Assembly: GCA_019912395.1 (NCBI GenBank)
Contig: JAIOIH010000087.1
Location: forward strand, 1 to 64,000
Length of the DNA stretch: 64,000 nucleotides
Direction of reading: 5' to 3'
From: Flavobacteriales bacterium
GTDB lineage: Bacteria > Bacteroidota > Bacteroidia > Flavobacteriales_F > PHOS-HE28
The notes under the pieces were generated by a model. That model was not told the DNA's origin, ran no database searches, and saw only the letters and a list, made by a program, of their open reading frames with translations. Of the stretch, positions 24,862-55,757 are shown piece after piece. Positions within the stretch are counted from its first letter, which is position 1; every line of letters begins with the position of its first letter. The translations under genes were made by a program, and so were the position numbers.

Positions 24862-26133
24862 CTAATTTTCTGATCGTCTGATCGTCTGGTCCCCAAACAT
24901 CCTTCGCAGTCGCCGCCCATCCGCCCCATTCGGCCACAGGTCCATGAAGGAGGAACCCGTAATGCGCATGAACGCGATGGTCTGGTACACCGCATTGATG
25001 CAGTAGGCGAGCGTGGCGGTTATGGCCGCGCCTTCAAGCCCGAACACCGGGATCAATGTCAGACCTGCCGCGATCGTTACCACGAGTCCCAGCCCGGAGC
25101 CGATCACGTTATGGATGTTCCGCGCCGTGCCGCTGAAGAAATGGCTGTATGCCTGCGAAGCCGCCATGCTGAGGATCCCCGGGATCAGCAGGGCGATCAA
25201 CGGGGAAATGCCCACTACTTCCGGACCAAAGACCCACTGGAAGACGGATGACGGAAGGAGCACCAGCACCGCGACAACGGCGGTGGCAAAGGCCATGGAG
25301 GTCTTGAGGAAGGTGAGCGTCAACAGCCGTTGTCCTTCCATTCCTTCCGTGTTGCTGATCTTGCTGTAAAGCACTACGGCCAAGCTCTTCGGCACCAACC
25401 AAGCGCCTTCCGCCAGTTGGTTGGCGACGGTGTAGATCCCCAACGCCGCAGTGTTCTGGAATTTCTCGATCAGCCAGTACGCCAATCGATAGTTCATCAG
25501 TTGCATGCCATTGGCCATTTGCACGTATGCGCCTTGGCGCACCAGCAAACGCAACACCTTCACGGGTGGCGCAGCATGTACGGCTACGTTCCTGCGCATG
25601 GCGGCGATGCTCAGCACCAGCGCAACCGCAATGGACAAGTACGAGGCCGTGATGAACACATGGGCATCGGCTCCGGGATCGCGGGCGAGAAAGGCAAAAG
25701 CCGCCACCAGCACCAGCGCTTGCACCACAGCGATCAGGTTGTTCGCCCGGATCCGCTGCTGGCCGATGAGCACGCTGAGGTGTATGGCGTGGACCCCTTG
25801 CAGGAAGGCCAGCACGGCCACAGGCCCGGCGTAGCCTTCCGGCACCAGTGCGAAGAGCTCCACGATGCCATAGCCGGCCACCGCCGCGATCACGGCCCAG
25901 AGGTAGCACGGCCGCAACAAGCGACCCAGCGCCACGCGGGGCACCAAGTACACCAAGGCACTTCCCCCAACCAGGTCCATGCCCAAGCGTACCAAGGTGA
26001 TCCCCAGCACGATCAAGCCGATGGTGCCCAGCCCCGTGGCACCCAGCCGATGCCCGGCGATCACCGCTACCAGCAAGCCCATCGCCGTGGTGATGATGCG
26101 TGCCGCAATGGTGCCGGAGATCGCCTTCAACAT
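24862..26133 (-). CDS. Polysaccharide flippase (Wzx/MATE-like)
   Basis: A 423-residue multi-pass membrane protein with about twelve hydrophobic segments spread along the length. The N-terminus (SGTIAARIITTAMGLLVAVI, GATGLGTIGLIVLGI) and overall pattern are those of O-antigen/oligosaccharide flippases, which move lipid-linked glycans across the inner membrane. It is the third gene of a glycan operon, 3 bp after the formyltransferase-like gene. Its last codons (QTIRRSEN) and stop come from an 18-bp dispersed repeat (24865-24882), so the native C-terminus was probably replaced. Confidence 0.85.
   Translation of the reverse strand: MLKAISGTIAARIITTAMGLLVAVIAGHRLGATGLGTIGLIVLGITLVRLGMDLVGGSALVYLVPRVALGRLLRPCYLWAVIAAVAGYGIVELFALVPEGYAGPVAVLAFLQGVHAIHLSVLIGQQRIRANNLIAVVQALVLVAAFAFLARDPGADAHVFITASYLSIAVALVLSIAAMRRNVAVHAAPPVKVLRLLVRQGAYVQMANGMQLMNYRLAYWLIEKFQNTAALGIYTVANQLAEGAWLVPKSLAVVLYSKISNTEGMEGQRLLTLTFLKTSMAFATAVVAVLVLLPSSVFQWVFGPEVVGISPLIALLIPGILSMAASQAYSHFFSGTARNIHNVIGSGLGLVVTIAAGLTLIPVFGLEGAAITATLAYCINAVYQTIAFMRITGSSFMDLWPNGADGRRLRRMFGDQTIRRSEN
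24865..24882. repeat. 18-bp dispersed repeat, copy 2
   Basis: Identical to 15072-15089 and followed by a further partial CGTCTG unit. Here it encodes the last residues of the flippase. Confidence 0.75.
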
Positions 26134-26136
26134 GCT

Positions 26137-27765
26137 TCACTGGTGATCACGAACGCTTTTCGTTCCCCGCTTTTTCGATGCCTTGTTGCCGGCCTTGCGC
26201 TTGGTTTTTCCGGTAGGGGAACGCATGCCATCCACCAATGTGATGTCGCCCACCTTGCTGAGCGTGCGGAGGCCATGCGACCAAGGTCCCTTCAAGGGCT
26301 CGATGTACTTCACGGGTTCTTCGTGGAAGCGCGTGGGGGAGAGTTCGGTTACGTGGTTCAGCGCGATGCGGCCGCCGGGGGAAATGCTGCCGTCGCGGGC
26401 AGGACGCCACAGTTGCCCTTCGTACCGAAAGGGCGTGCCGGCAGGGCGGGAGGAGGCCAGGTCCACTTTGATCGGATTGAGCAGGTGGGCGGTGTACGGA
26501 CCCTCCAGGCGGTCGGCATGATAGGCACAGAGCATCGCGTCCTCCAGCGGGGCGAGCGTGCCGAACAGCCACCACCGCCCGTCATGCTCGAAAAGCGTCG
26601 GCGAGTACAGCCCTTCTTGGAGCAAGGTGGAGACAAAGGTCAACGAGGAACGGTCCTCATCGAGCAAATAGAGGTCCACCCGACCGGTGGACACTTGTTC
26701 GGGCACGGCAAGGATGGCCCCCCCCTGTTCCACGATGAACGGATAGGAAAGGGAGCCGTCGCTTTCCAACACCGTCCGCGACCGCTTCAGGTTGTTGTCC
26801 TTCTTCGGGCGCAGCCGCCCGATAAGGCCCTTGCCCATCTTCAGGTCGAATTTCTCGTACAGCACGTTCAGCCTTCCTTGGTCCACCAGGCCGAACGGAG
26901 TGGAACGGTACTGTCCGGCGGCAGGCGGGGGCAGCCAGCGTACGTTCAGGCTGGGCTCATCCTTAAGCAGCGTGCCCACCGGGTGGGGAAGCACGCCGAT
27001 GTTCCATTCCTCGCTTGTGCTTTCCGCAGAGGCCTTTGCCAGCCGCTTGCCCGCCCCTTGCTTCAGCAGCACGCGGAGCATTTCAACATTGCCCGGCTGG
27101 CGGTTGGCGCGGGCGATCGGTCCGGCATCCGCACCAGCAGCAGCATCCGCGTCGCCTGCGAGCAGGGCTCGGCAGACCTGGGCGGGCCAGAGGGAGCAGC
27201 AGAGGAGCACACCACCGGCCGTCGCATCGATCGATCCAAGGAAGGTGGGGAAGCGACCGCTCCGGAGAACGGATCCGCCAGCCTCGGTGAGCCGCACCAG
27301 CTTGGCCACAGTGCTGCGGGAATCGTGGAACGCTTCCCACAAACCGGGCACGCCCTGCACCTGTCCGGTGGTATCGCCATGGTGGATCCGCCAGACACCC
27401 GAACGAGGGAGTTGCAACAGTGGTGCAGGGAGTTCCCCGGCGGTGAATTGAAGCAATATGTCCAGGCGGTACGGTTCCAGTTCTTGCAAAAGGTCAGCCT
27501 CGGACCGGTCGGTTGCTTTTATTCGGTGTAGTCCCTCGAGCACAGCAGCGCCGTCCTCCATGCGCAGTGCCGAGGTGCGCGAGGGGCGTTGCAGCCACCA
27601 TCGGTAGAGGATGGAAGTGTTGCCTCTCGAAGGGGGCCTCGTCTCCAGCACCAAGGTGAGTTCCACCCCGGTGACGCGCTGGAGTTCGCGCACACATTCG
27701 GCCTGCCAATGGAGCAGTTGCGGACCATGGCAGACGATGCCGATGCGAAGGACCCGTTCAGCCAT
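26137..27765 (-). CDS. Formyltransferase-like / GIPC-transferase-type beta-propeller fusion protein
   Basis: A 542-residue protein that appears to join two domains. Residues about 1-240 resemble formyltransferase-like proteins (RIGIVCHGPQLLHWQAECV, LLQFTAGELPAPLLQLPRSG, VWRIHHGDT, GVPGLWEAFHD, GGSVLRSGRFPT). Residues about 255-520 resemble the N-terminal five-bladed propeller of glucosamine inositolphosphorylceramide transferase-type proteins (YPFIVEQGGAILAVPE, GLYSPTLFEHDGRWWLFGT, NPIKVDLASSRPAGTPF, RIALNHVTELSPTRF). A basic tail (KTKRKAGNKASKKRGTK) ends it. Between GT4 and flippase genes, it likely modifies or assembles a surface glycan. The GT4 gene overlaps its start by 8 bp. Assignments are from memory of motifs. 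Confidence 0.65.
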   Translation of the reverse strand: MAERVLRIGIVCHGPQLLHWQAECVRELQRVTGVELTLVLETRPPSRGNTSILYRWWLQRPSRTSALRMEDGAAVLEGLHRIKATDRSEADLLQELEPYRLDILLQFTAGELPAPLLQLPRSGVWRIHHGDTTGQVQGVPGLWEAFHDSRSTVAKLVRLTEAGGSVLRSGRFPTFLGSIDATAGGVLLCCSLWPAQVCRALLAGDADAAAGADAGPIARANRQPGNVEMLRVLLKQGAGKRLAKASAESTSEEWNIGVLPHPVGTLLKDEPSLNVRWLPPPAAGQYRSTPFGLVDQGRLNVLYEKFDLKMGKGLIGRLRPKKDNNLKRSRTVLESDGSLSYPFIVEQGGAILAVPEQVSTGRVDLYLLDEDRSSLTFVSTLLQEGLYSPTLFEHDGRWWLFGTLAPLEDAMLCAYHADRLEGPYTAHLLNPIKVDLASSRPAGTPFRYEGQLWRPARDGSISPGGRIALNHVTELSPTRFHEEPVKYIEPLKGPWSHGLRTLSKVGDITLVDGMRSPTGKTKRKAGNKASKKRGTKSVRDHQ

Positions 27766-28909
27766 GGGCTATCGCTTCACGGTAAACGGCATCAAAGCCT
27801 TTGGCCACCGCCTGAGGGCTGAACCGCTGGCTCACGCTGGCGCGGATCACTGCGGGCGAATAGCGGCCATGCTCTTGTGCCATGCGGATCATCGCATCGC
27901 GCAGCGCATCATCGTTCCCCACGGGGATCAGCACTCCGCTCTCCGGCGTGATGAACGATTCCGGCCCGCCACAGCGCGTGGCGATCACCGGTTTGCCCGA
28001 GGCAAGCGCCTCGCCGGTGACCACGCTGAACGTTTCGAAGTTGCTGTTGATGATCACCGTGCCCGTGCTGGCCATCGCGGTGAGCACATCGGCCTGCGGC
28101 AATCGGCCAAGCCAGCGGACACGGGGGGCAACACCAAGGTGGTCGGCAAGTTGATGCAGCAACTCGCGGTCCGGGCCATCGCCGATCACCTCCAAGTGCA
28201 GGTCATGACCGTGGGCGCGTGCGGAAGCCAAGGCTCGAAGCGTACCGCTCACATTCTTGGTACTGTCCACAAGGTCCGCCACCATCATGAAGCGGTCATG
28301 CGGCCCCGGGGGGGGCAGTGGCCTGTCCATCCCGGATATCACGTTCGGAACCACCACATGGTCCCTGCCCAGACCGGCACGCTCCAGCGAGGCGGCAAGG
28401 TGTGCGCTCACCGCTGTGGTGCGTGCTGCATGCCGGAAGAGGAAGCGATCGATGGCTTTTGCCATGCCGCTCTTGCCTTGCCACGTGCCGTTCAGGTGAA
28501 CACTGCTTTGCTCACTCGCCATGTAGGGGATCTTCCACCTCCGGGAAAGTAGGAATGCGGTGTGCACCGGCCGGGTGAGGATGTGTGCATGGACGAGGTC
28601 GGGCAGGCCGCGCTCATGGAGCAAACGGGCCACGCCGGCCCGGACAGCACGGCGATAGCGGATGTAGTTCAGGATCTTGCGTACAGGCATGAAGCCAAGG
28701 GTACTTGGCCGATAATAGCAGCGCAGCTCCCATGCACCATCGGTCTGGTCCAGTATTTCCCCGGGTGCCACGGGCAAGATCAACGGGCACGGATAGATCA
28801 CGCTCACTTGGTGCAATTCGGCCACGGCCATCATCTGCTTCCGGATGAAATCGCCCAGCTGGGGGTCGGGCAGCCCCGGGTACCATTTGGGCAGGACGAG
28901 GACATGCAT
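27758..28909 (-). CDS. Glycosyltransferase family 4 protein
   Basis: A 383-residue GT-B glycosyltransferase, first gene of the glycan operon. N-terminal domain about 1-175 (VLVLPKWYPGLPDPQLGDF, LVHAHILTRP), C-terminal Rossmann domain about 190-370 with LEVIGDGPDRELLHQLAD and ESFIT-type donor-binding segment GEALASGKPVIATRCGGPES. These are the GT4 hallmarks of a retaining, nucleotide-sugar dependent enzyme acting at the cytoplasmic membrane face. It overlaps the next gene by 8 bp. An in-frame run of eight C (28308-28315, complement) encodes PPPG. Substrate not deducible. Confidence 0.9.
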   Translation of the reverse strand: MHVLVLPKWYPGLPDPQLGDFIRKQMMAVAELHQVSVIYPCPLILPVAPGEILDQTDGAWELRCYYRPSTLGFMPVRKILNYIRYRRAVRAGVARLLHERGLPDLVHAHILTRPVHTAFLLSRRWKIPYMASEQSSVHLNGTWQGKSGMAKAIDRFLFRHAARTTAVSAHLAASLERAGLGRDHVVVPNVISGMDRPLPPPGPHDRFMMVADLVDSTKNVSGTLRALASARAHGHDLHLEVIGDGPDRELLHQLADHLGVAPRVRWLGRLPQADVLTAMASTGTVIINSNFETFSVVTGEALASGKPVIATRCGGPESFITPESGVLIPVGNDDALRDAMIRMAQEHGRYSPAVIRASVSQRFSPQAVAKGFDAVYREAIAHG

Positions 28910-28944
28910 ACCAGCGCAAAGTAACGTGGACCCGTGGCACGGAG

Positions 28945-28952
28945 TATATTTG
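28945..28952 (+). promoter_or_regulatory. Promoter -7 element for tRNA-His
   Basis: TATATTTG matches the Bacteroidota consensus TAnnTTTG exactly and ends 31 bp before the tRNA. No convincing -33 TTG is visible upstream. Confidence 0.6.
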
Positions 28953-28983
28953 CGGCCCGTTTGGCGCTTTGTCCAACGGAAAT

Positions 28984-29058
28984 GGTGGATGTAGCTCAGT
29001 TGGTTAGAGCGCCGGATTGTGATTCCGGAGGTCGCCGGTTCAAGCCCGGTCTTCCACC
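28984..29058 (+). tRNA. tRNA-His (anticodon GTG)
   Basis: A full cloverleaf is readable: D-stem GCTC/GAGC, anticodon stem CCGGA/TCCGG with loop TTGTGAT and anticodon GTG at 29019-29021, T-arm GCCGG-TTCAAGC-CCGGT, acceptor GTGGATG/CTTCCAC with one T-T mismatch. The extra G at 28984 and discriminator C at 29058 fit the G-1:C73 identity of tRNA-His. CCA is not encoded. The 3' end lies within a palindrome (29049-29109). Confidence 0.95.
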
Positions 29059-29109
29059 CTTAAATGCGAAAACCCCGAAAGGGGTTTTTTGCATTTAAGG
29101 GTGGAAGAC
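29049..29109. repeat. 61-bp palindrome spanning the tRNA-His 3' end and terminator
   Basis: The 19-mer at 29049-29067 is the exact reverse complement of 29091-29109. Between them lies the terminator hairpin. The left arm includes the last ten bases of tRNA-His, so a read-through transcript could pair the acceptor strand with downstream RNA. Confidence 0.9.
29071..29090. terminator. Terminator of tRNA-His
   Basis: AACCCC-GAAA-GGGGTT followed by four T; A-tract on the other side makes it bidirectional in appearance. Confidence 0.85.
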
Positions 29110-29300
29110 AGCCGCGACAGCGGCTACCGGCCGCGCAGCGGCAGGTGGATTGAAATTTATCCCGCGCTGCGACGCGGGAAGCCCGGTCTTCCACCCTGCA
29201 TGAAGCCCCGAAAGGGGCTTTTTGCATGGGGGAAGACCGCCACGATAGCGGTTATCAATCGCGAAGCGGGGGTAACCCCGAGGTCTGCTTCGTGAGACCT
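29110..29300. repeat. Structured repeat cluster with duplicated tRNA 3' end
   Basis: Three GC-rich hairpins (29110-29125, 29130-29142, 29161-29178) are followed by a 19-bp exact copy of the tRNA tail and flank (29179-29197 equals 29042-29060), then a second terminator-like palindrome (29186-29237) and further small hairpins (ACCGC/GCGGT; CGGGG/CCCCG). The segment 29098-29109 is also the reverse complement of 29186-29197. No protein gene fits here. Confidence 0.75.
29203..29223. terminator. Second terminator-like hairpin
   Basis: AAGCCCC-GAAA-GGGGCTT then TTT, close variant of the tRNA terminator; it may also end the convergent cation-efflux gene transcript. Confidence 0.7.
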
Positions 29301-29305
29301 TGGGT

Positions 29306-30304
29306 TCAGGTGGCGGTTCCCGGCACAACATGCTTCCTGTTTGCCAGTACCGTTGCCAGCGTCCACGGCACGCGCTTTACGAAAGGTGCCTGCCGTACCG
29401 GGCAGTCCATGATCTGGCATACCGGACAGGACGCAGGCACACAGGGATCCGTATGGATGAAGAACTCCACTTCGCGACCGGACGTGCGGTTCACCAATTC
29501 CTCCATGTCCTTGATCTCCGCGTGGCTGCTCTCCAAGGTGTAATACCACGGAAGGGTGACGTGGGCATCAATGTGCAAGGTGCTGCCGAACTTGATCACC
29601 CGGAAATTATGGACATCGATCCATTCGGGTCGGCGGTTGGCATCGATGATCCGCACCAGCTCATCGGCCACGGTCATGTCCGTTTCGTCCATGATGCCAC
29701 CGACGCTTCGCCGCACCATCCGGATGCCCTGCCAGATGATGAGGAGGGCGAACCCGATGGCGAAGAGACTATCCAGCCAGAGCAGGCCGGTCAGCTGGAT
29801 CACTATCAGGCCCAGCACGAGCGCTGCGCTGCTCCATGCATCCGAGAGCAGGTGTACCCCGCTCGCCTCCATCGTCAGGGAGTGTGCCTGCCTTCCCCGT
29901 TTACGCAGCACCAGGCCGAGGGCCAAGTTGGCGGCACCCGTGCCCGCGATCAACAGGGTACCCGCGCCGAGGTGCTGGATCGCCACCCCGGAAAGCCACG
30001 CATCGATGGCGCGATGGATGATCAGCCCGCCTGCCAGCGCTACCAACGACCCCTCCAGGGCGGCGCTGATGAATTCCACTTTTCCATGTCCGTAGGGATG
30101 TTCCCGGTCGTGCGGTTTCGCCGCGAGCGTCAGGCTGTACAGGGCGAAGCCGCCAGCAGCCACGTTCACGATGCTCTCCAAGGCGTCGCTGAGCACGGCA
30201 TTGCTTTGCGTGAGGCGCCAGGCAACAAACTTTACCACCATCAGCAAGATGCCCGCCAGCAGCACCCCGGCCTGCATTCGCACATTCCCTCGCGGTGACC
30301 CCAT
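29306..30304 (-). CDS. Cation diffusion facilitator family transporter
   Basis: A 332-residue inner-membrane exporter of divalent metals. ATG 30302-30304 chosen; the 24 codons upstream lack family similarity. Six hydrophobic segments are spread over about 10-215; the metal-site motifs appear as SDALES (helix 2) and HDREHPYGHGKVEF (loop after helix 3), with SDAWSS in helix 5. The cytoplasmic domain (about 220-332) ends with a cysteine-rich stretch CVPASCPVCQIMDCPVR that could bind a metal. The gene is divergent from nhaA, 83 bp away. Substrate (Zn, Fe, Co or Mn) not deducible. Confidence 0.9.
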   Translation of the reverse strand: MGSPRGNVRMQAGVLLAGILLMVVKFVAWRLTQSNAVLSDALESIVNVAAGGFALYSLTLAAKPHDREHPYGHGKVEFISAALEGSLVALAGGLIIHRAIDAWLSGVAIQHLGAGTLLIAGTGAANLALGLVLRKRGRQAHSLTMEASGVHLLSDAWSSAALVLGLIVIQLTGLLWLDSLFAIGFALLIIWQGIRMVRRSVGGIMDETDMTVADELVRIIDANRRPEWIDVHNFRVIKFGSTLHIDAHVTLPWYYTLESSHAEIKDMEELVNRTSGREVEFFIHTDPCVPASCPVCQIMDCPVRQAPFVKRVPWTLATVLANRKHVVPGTAT

Positions 30305-30387
30305 GCTGCCAAGGTAAACGCCTTCCCTCGCGTTGCTTAATCTTGCACCCCGCATCAGACCGTTTTGGGTTTGCAAGGAACTCCTGT

Positions 30388-31560
30388 ATGAAACCGATCA
30401 GTCTTTTTACCGACCTGCTGAACAATGAGCGCACAGCGGGCATGCTGCTCGTGATCTGTACGATCATTTCCCTGCTGCTGGCCAATTCCCCGGCCGGGGA
30501 AGCTTATCTGGCCGTCTGGCACCTTCCCATGGCAGGCAAGTATTTCGAGTATTGGATCAATGATGGGTTGATGGCCATCTTCTTCCTGATGATCGGGCTG
30601 GAACTGGAACGGGAGATCTACATCGGTGAGCTTTCCGATCGCAAACAGGCGATGTTGCCCATCATGGCCGCTTTTGGCGGAATGCTCGTTCCCGCAGGCA
30701 TCCACATGCTCCTGAACCATGGCACACCCACCGCTTCGGGCGCCGGCATCCCCATGGCCACCGATATCGCCTTCGCCATCGGCATCCTGGCCTTGTTGGG
30801 CGATCGTGTTCCCCTCGCCCTCAAGGTTTTCCTTACGGCCTTGGCCGTGATCGACGATCTCGGTGCGATCTTCACCATCGCCATTTTCTATTCCACCGGT
30901 ATTGATTGGGCCTATCTGGGCGGGGCCATGGGCATCCTGTTGATCCTTTTCATCATGAACAGGGCCAAGGTGATGAACCTGATCCCCTATTTGGCGCTCG
31001 GCGTGGTGATGTGGTACCTGATGCTGCACTCGGGCGTGCATGCCACCGTCACCGGGGTGCTGGTGGCCTTTGCCATTCCTTTCGGCGATGGCAGCCGGAA
31101 GTCCATCTCTGCACGGCTCCAGCATTTCCTGCACCGCCCCGTCTCCTACGTGATACTGCCCCTCTTCGCCCTGGCCAACACCGGAATCGTTCTCGAAAGT
31201 GATTGGTTCGACCACCTCTTCACCCTGAACGGCTACGGGATCTTCCTGGGTCTCGTGGTGGGCAAGCCACTCGGTATCGGACTTTTCTGTTTGGCCACCA
31301 TTGGACTGGGCGTCTCCACACTGCCACCCGGGATCAATTGGAAGCAGCTCCTGGGGGCGGCCATGTTGGCGGGGATCGGCTTTACCATGTCCATCTTCAT
31401 CACCCTGCTGGCCTTCGACGACCTGGAACACGTGGTGTCCTCCAAGACCACCATCCTGGTCTCATCCCTGTTGGCGGCCGTCATCGGCTTTGCGTGGCTG
31501 CGATTTGTGCTCCCGCACCGGCCGCCCGCGAATGCCGCCGTCGAGGAGGAAGCTGGTTGA
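30388..31560 (+). CDS. nhaA: Na+/H+ antiporter NhaA
   Basis: A 390-residue inner-membrane antiporter that exchanges cytoplasmic Na+ for external H+. ATG 30388 gives the canonical beginning (FTDLLNNERTAGMLLVI). Diagnostic segments: FFLMIGLELEREIYIGEL, ATDIAFAIGILALLGDRVP and LTALAVIDDLGAIFTIAIF, whose paired aspartates (VIDDLGA) are the ion-binding site, and GVHATVTGVL. Length matches the family. Divergent from the cation-efflux gene and 77 bp upstream of arginase. Confidence 0.96.
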   Translation: MKPISLFTDLLNNERTAGMLLVICTIISLLLANSPAGEAYLAVWHLPMAGKYFEYWINDGLMAIFFLMIGLELEREIYIGELSDRKQAMLPIMAAFGGMLVPAGIHMLLNHGTPTASGAGIPMATDIAFAIGILALLGDRVPLALKVFLTALAVIDDLGAIFTIAIFYSTGIDWAYLGGAMGILLILFIMNRAKVMNLIPYLALGVVMWYLMLHSGVHATVTGVLVAFAIPFGDGSRKSISARLQHFLHRPVSYVILPLFALANTGIVLESDWFDHLFTLNGYGIFLGLVVGKPLGIGLFCLATIGLGVSTLPPGINWKQLLGAAMLAGIGFTMSIFITLLAFDDLEHVVSSKTTILVSSLLAAVIGFAWLRFVLPHRPPANAAVEEEAG

Positions 31561-31605
31561 CCGCCCGAGGTCCAGTTCGCGGAAGGAACGCTACCGGCCC
31601 TCGAT

Positions 31606-31613
31606 TACATTTG
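31606..31613 (+). promoter_or_regulatory. Promoter -7 element for the arginase-ctlX-argS cluster
   Basis: TACATTTG fits TAnnTTTG and ends 24 bp before the arginase ATG. A -33 element is not obvious. Confidence 0.5.
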
Positions 31614-31637
31614 AGGCCCTAGCGGAAAACCATTCAA

Positions 31638-32579
31638 ATGGAAGTGAGATTGATCGAAGCGGCCTCGGAGATCGGTGCCGGAACGCGCGGTACCAGCATG
31701 GGCATGAGCGCATTGCGCGTGGCTGCTTGGAAATCGGGAAGCGAGCTTTTCGGCCATGCCGAGGAAAGCATCCTGCGCGACGAGAACGATGTGCTCTATG
31801 AGGACGACAAGGATTCGCCCAATGCCCACCACATCGACGGCCTCATCCGTTTCGAATCGGACCTGGCCTATGAGGTGTATAAATTCCTGCGGAACAACAT
31901 CTTCCCGATCGTCATCGGCGGGGACCACTCCATCGCGATCGGATCGGTCTCCGGCACCAAGATGGCATTCCCCAATGAACGTATTGGCGTGATCTGGATC
32001 GATGCCCATGCGGACATGCACAGCCCATGGACCACGCCCAGCGGCAACGTGCATGGCATGCCATTGGCCCTGCTGATGAACATCGAGATGAAAGGCCAGA
32101 ACCGGCCCAGGATGTTCACCTTGGACGTGTGGGACCGCCTCCGGAAGATCGGCTCCAGTGGACCCAAGGTGCTGCCGGGAGACCTCGTGATCATTGGCTT
32201 GCGCGACTATGAGGCGGAGGAAGCGGCGATCATCGAAGAGCACAACATCAAGGTGATCACCGTGAAGGAGCTTCGCGAAAAAGGTCCCGATGCCATCGTG
32301 AAGGAGACCTTGACCTACCTCGGCGGCTGCGACAAGCTCCATGTGAGCTTCGATGTGGACAGCTTGGACCCGAGCATCTCCGTGGGCACCGGAACCCCGG
32401 TACCGGACGGTCTTTTTCTGGACGAGGCCCGCGGTCTGCTCACCGGATTCTGTGCCGAACCCAGGACAGTGACCTTGGACGTGGTGGAGATCAACCCGGC
32501 CTTGGACACCCGGAACGCCATGGCCGAGAACGTGCTCACCGTGATGGAGCCGTTGTTCCCCATTCTTCGTGCCCGCTGA
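31638..32579 (+). CDS. Arginase/agmatinase family ureohydrolase (probable arginase)
   Basis: A 313-residue manganese ureohydrolase that would split arginine to ornithine and urea. The ligand motifs are complete: GGDHSIAIGS (His97), DAHADMHS (Asp122, His124, Asp126) and SFDVDSLDPS. The SLDPS form and following GTGTPVPDG resemble arginases more than agmatinases. It starts a three-gene run with the CtlX-like hydrolase (12 bp gap) and argS (17 bp gap), all touching arginine. Substrate by homology only. Confidence 0.9.
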   Translation: MEVRLIEAASEIGAGTRGTSMGMSALRVAAWKSGSELFGHAEESILRDENDVLYEDDKDSPNAHHIDGLIRFESDLAYEVYKFLRNNIFPIVIGGDHSIAIGSVSGTKMAFPNERIGVIWIDAHADMHSPWTTPSGNVHGMPLALLMNIEMKGQNRPRMFTLDVWDRLRKIGSSGPKVLPGDLVIIGLRDYEAEEAAIIEEHNIKVITVKELREKGPDAIVKETLTYLGGCDKLHVSFDVDSLDPSISVGTGTPVPDGLFLDEARGLLTGFCAEPRTVTLDVVEINPALDTRNAMAENVLTVMEPLFPILRAR

Positions 32580-32591
32580 CCCCGATCCGCC

Positions 32592-33536
32592 GTGGCAGCT
32601 CCAATACGTCCTCATGACCAGGTCGCCGGGAACGTGATCCTGGTCCGGCCGGTGGGGTTCCGGTATTCCTCGGAGACAGCGACCACCAACGGGTTCCAAC
32701 GGGACCTTCCGGGGCCTGACGTGCAGTACAAGGTGGAACAGGAGTTCGATGCGCTCATCAATTCCTTGACCGCATCTGGCATCGGCATCACCGTACTCGA
32801 TCCGAGAGATCCCTCGGCACCCGATGCGGTTTTTCCGAACAATTGGTTCAGCACCGACGAGGAAGGGCGCATCGTGACCTATCCAATGGCCGCGGCCTCC
32901 CGACGCTCCGAACGCGATCCAGAACTGGGCAAGGCATTGGCGGAATTCGGGTTCCGGAACAAGGGAACCCTCGACCTGAGCCATTGGGAAGAGCAACACC
33001 TGGCCTTGGAAGGTACCGGCAGCATGGTGCTGGATCGGAGGACACATACGGCATACGCAGCCCTATCACCGCGAACATCCGGGCAGGTACTGGATGCGTG
33101 GTGCAGGGAGATGAAGTATGAGCCCATCGCCTTCACGGCTACCATGGACGGCACCAAGGGTGGGCAGCCCGTGTACCACACCAACGTCCTGATGAGCATC
33201 GGGGATCGCTTTGCCGTGATCTGCATGGAAGCCCTCCCGGACCTCAATGAGCGGCATCGTGTGGCAGCCGGGCTGGCGGAGTCCCGCAGGGAGCTTGTCC
33301 TGATCACGTTGGCACAGATGCATGCCTTCGCGGGGAATATCCTGCACCTGCGAAGCGGGAAGGGCGACTTTGTTTTCCTCTCCGAACAGGCCCGTGGTTC
33401 ATTGCTGCCCGACCAGGTCCGCCAATTGGGAAAGCACGGGGAGCTGGTGCCGGTGGCCATTCCCACCATTGAAACGATCGGCGGAGGCAGCGTGCGCTGC
33501 ATGCTCGCGGAGAACTTTCTTCCTTTGCGCGCATAG
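32592..33536 (+). CDS. ctlX: Citrulline/arginine-modifying amidinotransferase-fold hydrolase (CtlX-like)
   Basis: A 314-residue pentein-fold enzyme. It begins at GTG 32592; the protein then has the family start with NVILVRPVGFRYSSET. Conserved segments: AVFPNNWFST, GTGSMVLDR, HAFAGNILHL, and the nucleophile Cys303 in GSVRCMLAENF. The family includes citrulline hydrolase CtlX and dimethylargininases. Coupling with arginase suggests arginine or citrulline breakdown. No ATG fits the family start better. Confidence 0.85.
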   Translation: MAAPIRPHDQVAGNVILVRPVGFRYSSETATTNGFQRDLPGPDVQYKVEQEFDALINSLTASGIGITVLDPRDPSAPDAVFPNNWFSTDEEGRIVTYPMAAASRRSERDPELGKALAEFGFRNKGTLDLSHWEEQHLALEGTGSMVLDRRTHTAYAALSPRTSGQVLDAWCREMKYEPIAFTATMDGTKGGQPVYHTNVLMSIGDRFAVICMEALPDLNERHRVAAGLAESRRELVLITLAQMHAFAGNILHLRSGKGDFVFLSEQARGSLLPDQVRQLGKHGELVPVAIPTIETIGGGSVRCMLAENFLPLRA

Positions 33537-33553
33537 ACCGATCCCCGGATACC

Positions 33554-35386
33554 ATGTTCCAAGACCCCCTCCAGGCCCAACTGCTGCCCGCGTTGCAAGC
33601 CGCTTTTCAGGAACTCTTCCAGCATGCGCTGGACCCCAAGGCCATCGCGTTCCAACCCACCCGGCCGGAGTTCGAGGGGGATGTCACGATCAATGTGTTC
33701 CCTTTTCTCAAGCTCAGTGGCAAGGGGCCGGAGCAGACCGCCACCGCCATCGGGAAGCACCTTCATGCGCACGTGGACGTTGTGGAGCGTTTCAACGTGG
33801 TGAAGGGCTTTCTCAACATCGTGATCGCGGATGCCTACTGGACCGATTTTCTGCGGGAAGCAGGGGAGAAGGGCATTCTGCAATTCCCTTCCTCCGGAGA
33901 CCAGGTAATGGTGGAGTATTCCTCGCCGAACACCAACAAACCATTGCACTTGGGGCACGCCCGCAACATCTTCCTCGGCGATTCCGTGAGCCGCATTTTG
34001 CAAGCGGCCGGGAATGACGTGGTGCGTGTGCAGATCGTCAATGACCGCGGCATCCACATCTGCAAGAGCATGGTGGCCTGGCTGAAGTTCGGCAACGGGG
34101 AAACCCCGGAAAGCAGCGGCCTCAAGGGCGATAAGCTCGTGGGCAAGTACTACGTGGCCTTCGATACGGCGTGGAAGGCCGAGGTAGCGGAGCAGATCGC
34201 GGCAGGAATGAAGGAGGACGAGGCGGAGAAGCAGGCACCGATCATGCTGGAAGCCCAGGAAATGCTCCGAAAATGGGAAGCGAACGATCCGGAGGTCCGC
34301 ACCCTCTGGGCGAAGATGAACGGCTGGGTCTACGATGGCTTCAACGCCACGTACGCACGCATGGGTGTGGGCTTCGACAAGATCTACTACGAAAGCGACA
34401 CCTACGTGCTGGGCAAGAAGGACGTGATGGACGGCCTTGAAAAGGGCGTGTTCTACAAGAAAGAGGACGGGAGCGTGTGGGTGGACAACACCCCGGACGG
34501 CCTCGATGAAAAGGTGCTGATGCGCGGTGACGGGACCAGCCTCTACATGACGCAGGACATCGGCACGGCCATCAAGCGGTTCGAGGAGTTCCCCGGCCTG
34601 AAAAGGCTCATCTATACCGTGGGCAACGAGCAGGACTATCACTTCAAGGTGCTCTTCCTGATCCTGAAGAAGCTCGGCTATGCATGGGCCGAAGGGCTGT
34701 ACCACCTCAGCTACGGCATGGTGGACCTGCCCACGGGCAAGATGAAAAGCCGCGAAGGCACCGTGGTGGATGCCGACGAGCTAATGGAGGAGGTGGTCCA
34801 GGAGGCACGCCTGGCCGGGGAGGAGCTGAGCAAGCTCGATGATTTTTCGGAGGATGAAAAGACCATTCTGTTCGAGCAGATCGGCATGGCCGCCCTGAAA
34901 TACTACCTGCTGAAGGTGGACCCGAAGAAGCGCATGCTGTTCGACCCCAAGGCCAGCATTGATCTGCAAGGGCATACCGGGCCGTTCATCCAGTACACGT
35001 ATGCAAGGATCCGCAGCTTGCTGCGCAAGGCGGGGGAGAAGTTCCCAGTTGTCAGTTCTCAGTTGTCAGGCGTTCAAGCGTCGGCAGCAGGACAACCGAC
35101 AACTGACAGCTATCAACTGAACCAAGAGGAACGCACCGTCATCAAGCTGCTGCACCAGCTACCTGCCGTGCTGAACGAAGCGGCCACGAAATTGGATCCC
35201 TCTTCCCTCGCCAATCACACCTTCGAACTGGTGAAGGCCTACAACGGCTTCTACCAGACCGTTCCCGTGCTGAAGGAAGAGGACGGGACCAAACGCAACT
35301 TCCGGTTGGCGCTGAGCAATGCCGTGGGCAGCGCGACAAAAAGGGCCTTATGGTGCCTCGGGATCGAGGTGCCGGAGCGGATGTGA
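33554..35386 (+). CDS. argS: Arginyl-tRNA synthetase with in-frame palindromic insertion
   Basis: A 610-residue class I synthetase charging tRNA-Arg. Order: N-terminal additional domain (about 1-110), Rossmann domain with HLGH at 132-135 in SSPNTNKPLHLGHARN, GNEQDYHF and SYGMVDLPTGKMKSREG (KMSK-equivalent), and the DALR anticodon-binding domain with IQYTYARIRSLLRKA and FELVKAYNGFYQ. Between RSLLRKAGE and EERTVIKLL the gene carries about 22 residues (498-519) encoded by an imperfect palindrome that also occurs between genes elsewhere in the window. The site falls at a linker in the DALR domain, so the enzyme probably tolerates it. Confidence 0.95.
   Translation: MFQDPLQAQLLPALQAAFQELFQHALDPKAIAFQPTRPEFEGDVTINVFPFLKLSGKGPEQTATAIGKHLHAHVDVVERFNVVKGFLNIVIADAYWTDFLREAGEKGILQFPSSGDQVMVEYSSPNTNKPLHLGHARNIFLGDSVSRILQAAGNDVVRVQIVNDRGIHICKSMVAWLKFGNGETPESSGLKGDKLVGKYYVAFDTAWKAEVAEQIAAGMKEDEAEKQAPIMLEAQEMLRKWEANDPEVRTLWAKMNGWVYDGFNATYARMGVGFDKIYYESDTYVLGKKDVMDGLEKGVFYKKEDGSVWVDNTPDGLDEKVLMRGDGTSLYMTQDIGTAIKRFEEFPGLKRLIYTVGNEQDYHFKVLFLILKKLGYAWAEGLYHLSYGMVDLPTGKMKSREGTVVDADELMEEVVQEARLAGEELSKLDDFSEDEKTILFEQIGMAALKYYLLKVDPKKRMLFDPKASIDLQGHTGPFIQYTYARIRSLLRKAGEKFPVVSSQLSGVQASAAGQPTTDSYQLNQEERTVIKLLHQLPAVLNEAATKLDPSSLANHTFELVKAYNGFYQTVPVLKEEDGTKRNFRLALSNAVGSATKRALWCLGIEVPERM
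35046..35110. repeat. Dispersed palindromic element inside argS
   Basis: Arms 35051-35067 and 35091-35107 pair at 15 of 17 positions around a 23-bp loop. The left part (35046-35070) matches 48358-48382 at 23 of 25 bases; the right arm is identical to 136-152. It is read through in frame as part of ArgS. Confidence 0.85.
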
Positions 35387-54876: not shown

Positions 54877-55757
54877 GGCGTAGCTGCGTCGGTTGCCTGT
54901 TGCTGCTGCTCTTGATGGCCGGCTGCACGCGTTCACCGCTGCGCGGAGGGACCCGGATCGCCGATGATGTGTTCTGGCGATTGAACATGCTCGGTGATGG
55001 GGAGCGCACCCCCACGGACAGCGATAGTGTTTTCGTTCGTGTGCGGATGGCCAGGCCGGGCGCGGAACCCGGATCGATGTACAGCACTGAACGCTGGTAT
55101 GCCATGGGGGAAGGGAAGCGAACAAGTTTGTTCTTCGGACGGATGCGGCAAGGTGACAGCGCCACGGTGCTTCTTCGCTCCGCGTATGCACCTTGGGCCG
55201 AACTGGGGGCTACGGCACCACCATCGGTAAAGGACACTGGATGGGTGCAGATGGAGCTTTCTTTGCGGGAGGTCCGTTCCAGGGAGAAGTCCCGTGCGTT
55301 GGCGCGTGCGATCCTCATGGCCCGCAACCAAGGGGATGAGGACAGGATCCTTACCGATTTCCTCAGTTCATCGAAGTTGCCCTGGAAGAAGTCCATGGGT
55401 GTGTGGTACACCCTGGACACTACGGCGGGTACCGGCCCGAACATCCAGAGTGGCCAACTGGTCACCCTCACCTATACGGCGACCTTCCTGGACAATGGTG
55501 CCGTGTTCGACGAGCAGACAGCGAAGGATGGAGGCCTCACCTTCCGCCTGGGCGATCCCGGGCAGGTGATCAAGGGGCTGGAGATCGCCGCACACCTGCT
55601 GCCTGAAAGAGGAGGGGCAGGCCGGTTCATCATTCCCTCGGAATTGGCATTTGGGCCGTCAGGGTCCTCATCGGGCATCGTGCCACCTTGGACGCCGGTG
55701 CTTTATGAGATCCGAGTGCAACCGTCGATGCCCGATGAGGGTCAAGCTGCTCGTTGA
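54873..55757 (+). CDS. FKBP-type peptidyl-prolyl isomerase lipoprotein, two-domain
   Basis: A 294-residue predicted lipoprotein (MRRSCVGCLLLLLLMAGC; the lipobox is LMAGC with Cys18). An N-terminal FKBP-like half (about 30-135, MRQGDSATVLLRSAYAPW) lacks several active-site features; the C-terminal FKBP domain (about 180-285: LVTLTYTATFLDNGAVFDEQ, LLPERGGAGRFIIPSELAFG) looks complete. Likely folds exported proteins in the periplasm. Last gene of the nrnA transcript. Confidence 0.87.
   Translation: MRRSCVGCLLLLLLMAGCTRSPLRGGTRIADDVFWRLNMLGDGERTPTDSDSVFVRVRMARPGAEPGSMYSTERWYAMGEGKRTSLFFGRMRQGDSATVLLRSAYAPWAELGATAPPSVKDTGWVQMELSLREVRSREKSRALARAILMARNQGDEDRILTDFLSSSKLPWKKSMGVWYTLDTTAGTGPNIQSGQLVTLTYTATFLDNGAVFDEQTAKDGGLTFRLGDPGQVIKGLEIAAHLLPERGGAGRFIIPSELAFGPSGSSSGIVPPWTPVLYEIRVQPSMPDEGQAAR

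Follow-up and report, generated by a model that had tools for sequence, protein, structure and literature searches.

What looks like an ordinary palindrome behind the tRNA-His gene is a tRNA-linked repeat (TLR) in an unexpected phylum, and the feature is real and non-random. We consider it probable that the palindrome forms the left edge of this repeat and that the repeat works in the manner proposed below. In the window (the whole 64-kb stretch of DNA analysed here, which lies on contig C62 of a 4.13 Mb genome in 87 contigs), the palindrome occupies positions 29049-29109 as a perfect inverted repeat with 19-nt arms around a terminator-like hairpin. The first-pass annotation, which had described a perfect 19-bp inverted repeat embedding the 3′ end of tRNA-His, was thus confirmed. 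No other perfect inverted repeat in the 64 kb is as long (loop of at most 60 nt; the runner-up has 15 nt), and a chance match as its origin is ruled out by 30 dinucleotide shuffles of the window, whose longest perfect inverted repeats reached 10-13 nt. The outer arm takes in the final 11 nt of the tRNA-His gene plus 8 flanking nt (partner at 29091-29109), and the inner part is the terminator-like hairpin with six T (29085-29090). When imperfect pairing is allowed, the arms extend to 28 nt (29049-29076 and 29082-29109, 93% complementary), and the fold of 29049-29109 is predicted at -47.3 kcal/mol. A search of the own genome with 28985-29320 ruled out a high-copy genomic repeat: among its 23 matches at E<=10, those longer than 50 nt were limited to the locus, the inverted copy of the locus, tRNA stretches of 54 and 58 nt, and a single match of 63 nt (E 1.2). 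A simple terminator scan reported neither of the two hairpins of the locus (T1 and T2), though the T1 hairpin and its T run are plain in the sequence, and a repeat search over the whole window with a maximum distance of 30 did not pick up the palindrome.

Beyond what had been noticed initially, positions 29099-29109 also have an exact complement at 29186-29196, where an 18-nt direct copy of the tRNA tail ends. The inverted arm is part of a repeat unit closed by its own tail copy. The features of the locus are as follows.

28984..29059, + strand: tRNA-His gene, anticodon GTG (ARAGORN 28985-29059; Rfam tRNA 66.6 bits)
29042..29059, + strand: A0, the 18-nt tRNA-His tail that recurs downstream (AAGCCCGGTCTTCCACCC)
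29060..29098, + strand: T1, terminator-like hairpin with six T (29060-29097 predicted to fold at -19.8 kcal/mol)
29099..29109, + strand: A′, inverted copy of the tRNA 3′ end (GGGTGGAAGAC), complementary to A0 and to the downstream copy
29110..29178, + strand: body of unit 1, hairpins followed by a GATTGAAATTTATCCCG..CGGGA element
29179..29196, + strand: A1, exact 18-nt direct copy of the tRNA-His 3′ end, closing unit 1
29197..29228, + strand: T2, second terminator-like hairpin, resembling T1
29229..29305, + strand: incomplete second unit with a degenerate A′ (GGGGAAGACCG, 29229-29239) and hairpins

The anatomy and its tandem repetition are observed directly: the order is tRNA tail, T1, A′, hairpins, tail copy, T2, and second A′. 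Unit 1 spans +1 to +137 after tRNA-His, and a partial second unit follows in the same orientation, in which no further tail copy was found (29229..29305). A second, poorer palindrome (29184-29239, 85% complementary) repeats the whole arrangement. Unit 1 alone (29060-29197) is predicted to form the T1 hairpin and a domain closed by the helix between A′ and the copy (-80.1 kcal/mol), and the same helix closes the fold of 29098-29197 (-59.2 kcal/mol). The tRNA-His gene encodes G-1 (at 28984) and does not encode CCA; as read from the sequence, its acceptor stem has a U6-U67 mismatch, and A′ complements the same 3′ strand perfectly.

TLRs were first seen in 1978, and the processing of a co-transcribed TLR to a defined RNA has been shown for a few E. 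coli members. In PMC8144298, the class is named tRNA-linked repeats, with 22 members at ten E. coli loci (citing Rudd 1999), and its hallmark is given as identity over 18-19 bp with the 3′ end of the upstream gene. The same source places the rrnB member between the terminators T1 (87% termination) and T2, reports RNase E as the proposed cutter at the copied end of the TLR, and states that TLRs have no known function so far and that an earlier claim on amino acid starvation was retracted. The window unit shares this hallmark in 18 of 18 nt of the tRNA-His end (29179-29196), lies directly downstream of its host gene in the same orientation, and is followed by a tandem partner, as is often the case in E. 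coli. Like the window unit, the E. coli TLRs carry an 18-19 nt copy of the upstream gene's 3′ end in one to several units per locus, and at rrnB the unit is likewise enclosed by terminators (T1-rrB-T2), a layout for which we follow PMC8144298, since an exact 14-nt string test for a copy of the 5S tail found none in E. coli rrnB. The RrA/RrB/RrF units of the E. coli rRNA operons resemble the window unit in having two terminators and, according to PMC8144298, are co-transcribed by read-through; they differ from it in their hosts (rRNA operons) and in the known binding of Hfq and CsrA.

The tyrT locus of E. coli served as positive control. Exact 19-nt copies of the tRNA-Tyr tail were found at +159, +337, and +515 behind tyrV (period 178), the Rfam family RtT (RF00391) matches four times, and the arm A′ of the first unit (GGGGAAGGAT) is complementary to the copy. 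The RtT RNA (rttR) of tyrT thus resembles the window in having several units in tandem after a tRNA, all of which finish with the tRNA 3′ end, and in its inverted arm that pairs with the terminal copy; the corresponding helix in the window is formed by 29099-29109 with 29186-29196. The differences are that the hosts in the own genome are His, Lys, Leu, and Ser instead of Tyr, and that, compared with E. coli TLRs, the window unit stems from another phylum, does not match RtT, and has an inverted arm that is a perfect 11-nt complement and makes a visible palindrome with the tRNA itself. RF00391 gave no match in the window at the gathering threshold and none at E<=1 in the loci of the own genus, including the His locus (L056). 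Homology of the window unit to RtT is therefore unsupported; the unit is filed as a TLR by anatomy and not as RtT, and shared ancestry with the E. coli TLRs cannot be claimed. Rfam sX4 gave hits below cut-off on tRNA-Ser itself, which we did not count as evidence of homology for a unit.

The occurrence of such copies at other tRNAs is a direct observation as well. In the own genome, seven of the 43 distinct tRNAs are followed by one or more further copies of their own terminal 18 nt (up to 3 mismatches allowed, in a downstream stretch of 131 to 1600 nt depending on the tRNA), namely His (1), Leu-gag (4), Lys-ttt (3), Ser-cga (1), Ser-gct (1), Ser-gga (1), and Ser-tga (2), with a copy spacing of 92-181 nt. 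The control with the tails of other tRNAs gave zero in 36 of the 43 rows; its hits fell on the four Ser tRNAs and on Ala-cgc, Arg-tct, and Pro-tgg, three tRNAs that, as we read it, sit upstream of Ser arrays. Among genomes of the genus, tail copies were found at 3 of 36 tRNAs in G032 (His, Ser-tga, and Ser-cga) and at 2 of 39 in G010 (Pro-ggg, exact; Pro-cgg, 3 mismatches), both read nearly whole, and at one of the nine tRNAs read in G004. The tRNA-Lys gene (L047, G000:C62:68704-68776, - strand) is followed by three near-identical units of 99-100 nt, each with its own terminator-like hairpin and a Lys tail copy. Behind tRNA-Leu-gag (L078, G000:C9), the first unit (181 nt) seems unrelated in sequence to the next three (92-96 nt), and all four end in the Leu tail.

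The sequence of the Ser units of the genus is highly variable, and compensatory changes are seen directly: across 12 Ser units, 31 of 49 predicted pairs keep pairing with both sides changed at least once, which points either to maintenance of a structure or to the perfecting of palindromes. A′ is clear in the genus for His only, where 4 of 7 units score at least 24. It is absent from the Ser units (own tail 17.5, other tails 17.9) and from the Pro units (15.5 and 17.9, respectively) of the genus. When arms were permuted against tails across the genus (29 units), the observed sum was reached in 28 of 5000 cases, a weaker signal than that in the RtT-bearing gammaproteobacteria (see below).

A search for relatives at tRNA-His matched 56 of 58 genomes. 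One or two tail copies per locus (at most 4 mismatches) occur in 6 of the 32 tRNA-His loci of the genus, the own locus included. The first-pass annotation had named a lack of conservation of the outer arms as grounds for rejecting its proposal; such a lack was not seen, as the inverted copy of the tRNA end (p<=0.01, score >=20) was recovered in 7 of the 32 loci, again including the own one; both A′ and tail copy are present in four, and two further loci (L013 and L024) reach p 0.04-0.05. The palindrome is thus common to only a minority of the genus. Since the remaining 26 loci lack a tail copy, including two that end at a contig edge too early to show one (L018 and L021), the unit appears to be dispensable or short-lived. 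The His locus of G032 (L014) contains two near-identical tandem T1-A′ stretches.

For read-through, processing, and any function of the released RNA, we infer the following course of events. Most transcripts would stop at T1, and a minority would read through, as suggested by the 87% termination measured at T1 of E. coli rrnB. In the read-through RNA, A′ would pair with the unit's own terminal copy, and this helix would recreate an end resembling the acceptor and T-stem of a tRNA at the 3′ end of the unit. The enzyme that matures the tRNA 3′ end (RNase Z or RNase E/G) would then cleave after the copy just as after the tRNA itself and set free a structured small RNA of ~100-137 nt; such release has been reported for RtT and RrB of E. 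coli. As the copy would compete with the tRNA's own 3′ end for A′, the tRNA could stay folded. Both RNase Z (294.9 bits) and RNase E/G (428.6 bits) are encoded in the own genome.

To place the unit in a wider context, 84,980 species genomes were scanned with one Ser-tail pattern, which returned at least 118 stretches, of which 80 loci were readable; the pattern requires 16 nt and a period of 150-180 and is thus blind to copies that are shorter or differently spaced. Among the matches listed, 66 of the 80 readable loci show a complete tRNA-Ser followed by a copy without recognised tRNA identity (75 rows). The other 14 were set aside (seven with true tRNAs at both ends, six without a recognised tRNA, and one with the copy upstream). 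The matches listed include Gammaproteobacteria, Opitutae/Verrucomicrobia, Desulfuromonas, Saccharibacteria, Gracilibacteria, Actinobacteria, Bacillota, and Flavobacteriales, the last with the Ser arrays L243, L260, and L272. These Flavobacteriales records, together with gene content, are the basis on which the phylum of the window is assigned. Exact identity stops at 18 nt in 21 and at 19 nt in 35 of the listed rows (56 of 75), and position 20 is identical in 14 of 49, which is near chance. The copy would thus run from nt 58/59 of the tRNA to its end (in our own numbering). At L271 (6091-6257), and in contrast to the other loci, two truncated copies resembling tRNA-Ser stand behind a tRNA-Ser at a period of 82-84 nt; two rows of the 75, both from this locus, look like truncated tRNAs rather than TLRs. 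In the same class outside the genus, one of the 19 loci examined (L187-L205) has copies (L191 in G075, four exact, period ~170), and a single copy is present in each of two additional genomes of the phylum (L207 and L208). A search for literature on tRNA-tail repeats beyond E. coli returned, in the text portions available, only papers on TLR/RtT in E. coli and Enterobacteriales and one on Pasteurellaceae (PMC4986893). The kind of element is thus already known, and its presence in Bacteroidota and its breadth are apparently undescribed within the literature searched.

The match between unit and host was followed in those genomes where RtT can be recognised. RtT matches 12 of the 19 genomes reached through the listed Ser-scan loci (2 over cut-off) and, in a draw across the class, 45 of 369 gammaproteobacterial genomes (23 of them over cut-off). 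This gave 50 distinct RtT units at 39 of 49 loci (the other ten hold no new unit with a tail copy), whose hosts are Ser (28), Gln (11), Tyr (9), Lys (1), and Val (1), and each of the 50 carries the tail of its own host (at most 3 mismatches). A′ also fits the tail of the own host better than permuted tails, with a sum of 1116.5 against a permutation maximum of 1057.5 (5000 permutations; 49 units, after two of the 50 with N in their sequence were left out and the E. coli unit was included). This test is biased upward because the loci were found with a model that itself rewards pairing, and only for 13 of the 49 units was the tail of the actual host the best-scoring one. An unconstrained complement test on the 75 listed Ser rows reached p<=0.05 in only 9. 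A motif test on these pattern-found rows is free of the pairing-model bias: AGGGAT occurs in 17 of the 75 listed rows (shuffled mean 3.8, maximum 10), and a following GAGAAC, TTGAAC, TGAGAA, or TCGAAC in 41 (shuffled mean 12.8, maximum 20). In several phyla the arm is GGGATTCGAACC or near it, which we read as the putative reverse complement of a tRNA T-arm.

A different reading of the palindrome, put forward in the first-pass annotation, is that on read-through the 3′ strand of the tRNA pairs with A′ over the terminator; such pairing would inactivate or mark the precursor. As A′ is equally complementary to the tRNA-His end and to the downstream copy, such a fold is possible, and part of the proposal stood: for a transcript ending at 29109, folding favours the long hairpin with the opened tRNA (~-65.7 kcal/mol) over the separate tRNA and terminator hairpin (-47.4 kcal/mol), a gain of ~18 kcal/mol, and the arm is retained in some relatives. 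The preference is lost once the copy is transcribed, as intact tRNA plus closed unit (-107.7 kcal/mol) and the switched form (-111.1 kcal/mol) are predicted to be equal within error and thus leave the partner of A′ undecided; the unconstrained optimum (-118.2 kcal/mol) pairs the downstream copy with the 5′ acceptor strand of the tRNA. The tRNA folds first, and its tertiary contacts are ignored by the folding program; kinetics and tertiary structure would, from established knowledge, favour the native tRNA. Moreover, A′ is missing from most tail-copy units of the genus, and in the gammaproteobacterial members the inverted arm tracks the host's tail. The downstream copy is thus the more natural partner of A′ and, as the energies do not decide between the two, the switch is not favoured; we regard it as quite unlikely, and the palindrome can be accounted for without invoking a read-through sensor.

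The locus could also be neutral debris: short repeats of the tRNA end would have duplicated in tandem and recombined with one another, palindromic mobile repeats would have become fused to them, and the copies would survive only through their youth or through conversion by the tRNA gene. The widely differing array sizes among relatives, the near-identical units within the Lys array (as after recent duplication), and the many loci without any copy agree with this origin, which we nevertheless consider unlikely in view of the sharp copy edge at nt 58/59 in unrelated species, the shared motif flanking the copies in unrelated phyla, and the compensatory changes, part of which could be mimicked by template switching at palindromes. 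A strong two-way terminator and nothing else would suit the convergence of tRNA-His (+) with the cation-efflux gene (29306-30376, - strand) and the symmetrical hairpins; it is very unlikely, as it explains neither the exact 18-nt tail copy nor the copies of the same kind behind Lys, Leu, and Ser tRNAs. Integrases are known to duplicate tRNA 3′ ends (PMC9897764 and PMC3119063), so that the displaced tail might be a scar of integrated elements. Such fragments share the duplicated tRNA 3′ end with the window but flank kilobase elements with integrases, whereas here ~120 nt lie between the copies, with no integrase gene or element among them. With a tandem spacing of only 92-181 nt in the own genome, a structured and recurring unit body, no integrase-like Pfam family among the eight proteins tested (24862-35386), and no hit of the Ser pattern in viral contigs, a prophage or island scar was rejected as highly improbable.

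The tRNA-linked repeat thus being the preferred reading, it may tentatively be asked whether all these units form one bacteria-wide class, a portable RNA module that adopts the last 18-19 nt of its host and, at least in the RtT branch, a matching arm; we see this as a possibility that falls well short of an expectation. If it holds, the host-matched tail and arm would mean that the module is re-templated from the tRNA on moving, or that it is held in register by selection, in that case for a tRNA-like 3′ end. The copy edge at nt 58/59 gives the same length as a retroviral primer site, and the sharpness of this edge would be compatible with copying from a template. Now that this anatomy is seen in Bacteroidota and, through one Ser-tail pattern, in several other phyla, what was an E. 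coli oddity becomes accessible to comparative work, and the host-specific inverted arm makes the arm-copy helix concretely testable.

Elsewhere in the window, the second-longest perfect inverted repeat (15-nt arms) lies at 55666-55740, and an arginase-family gene, a dimethylarginine dimethylhydrolase-family gene, and an arginyl-tRNA synthetase gene stand in a row at 31638-35386.
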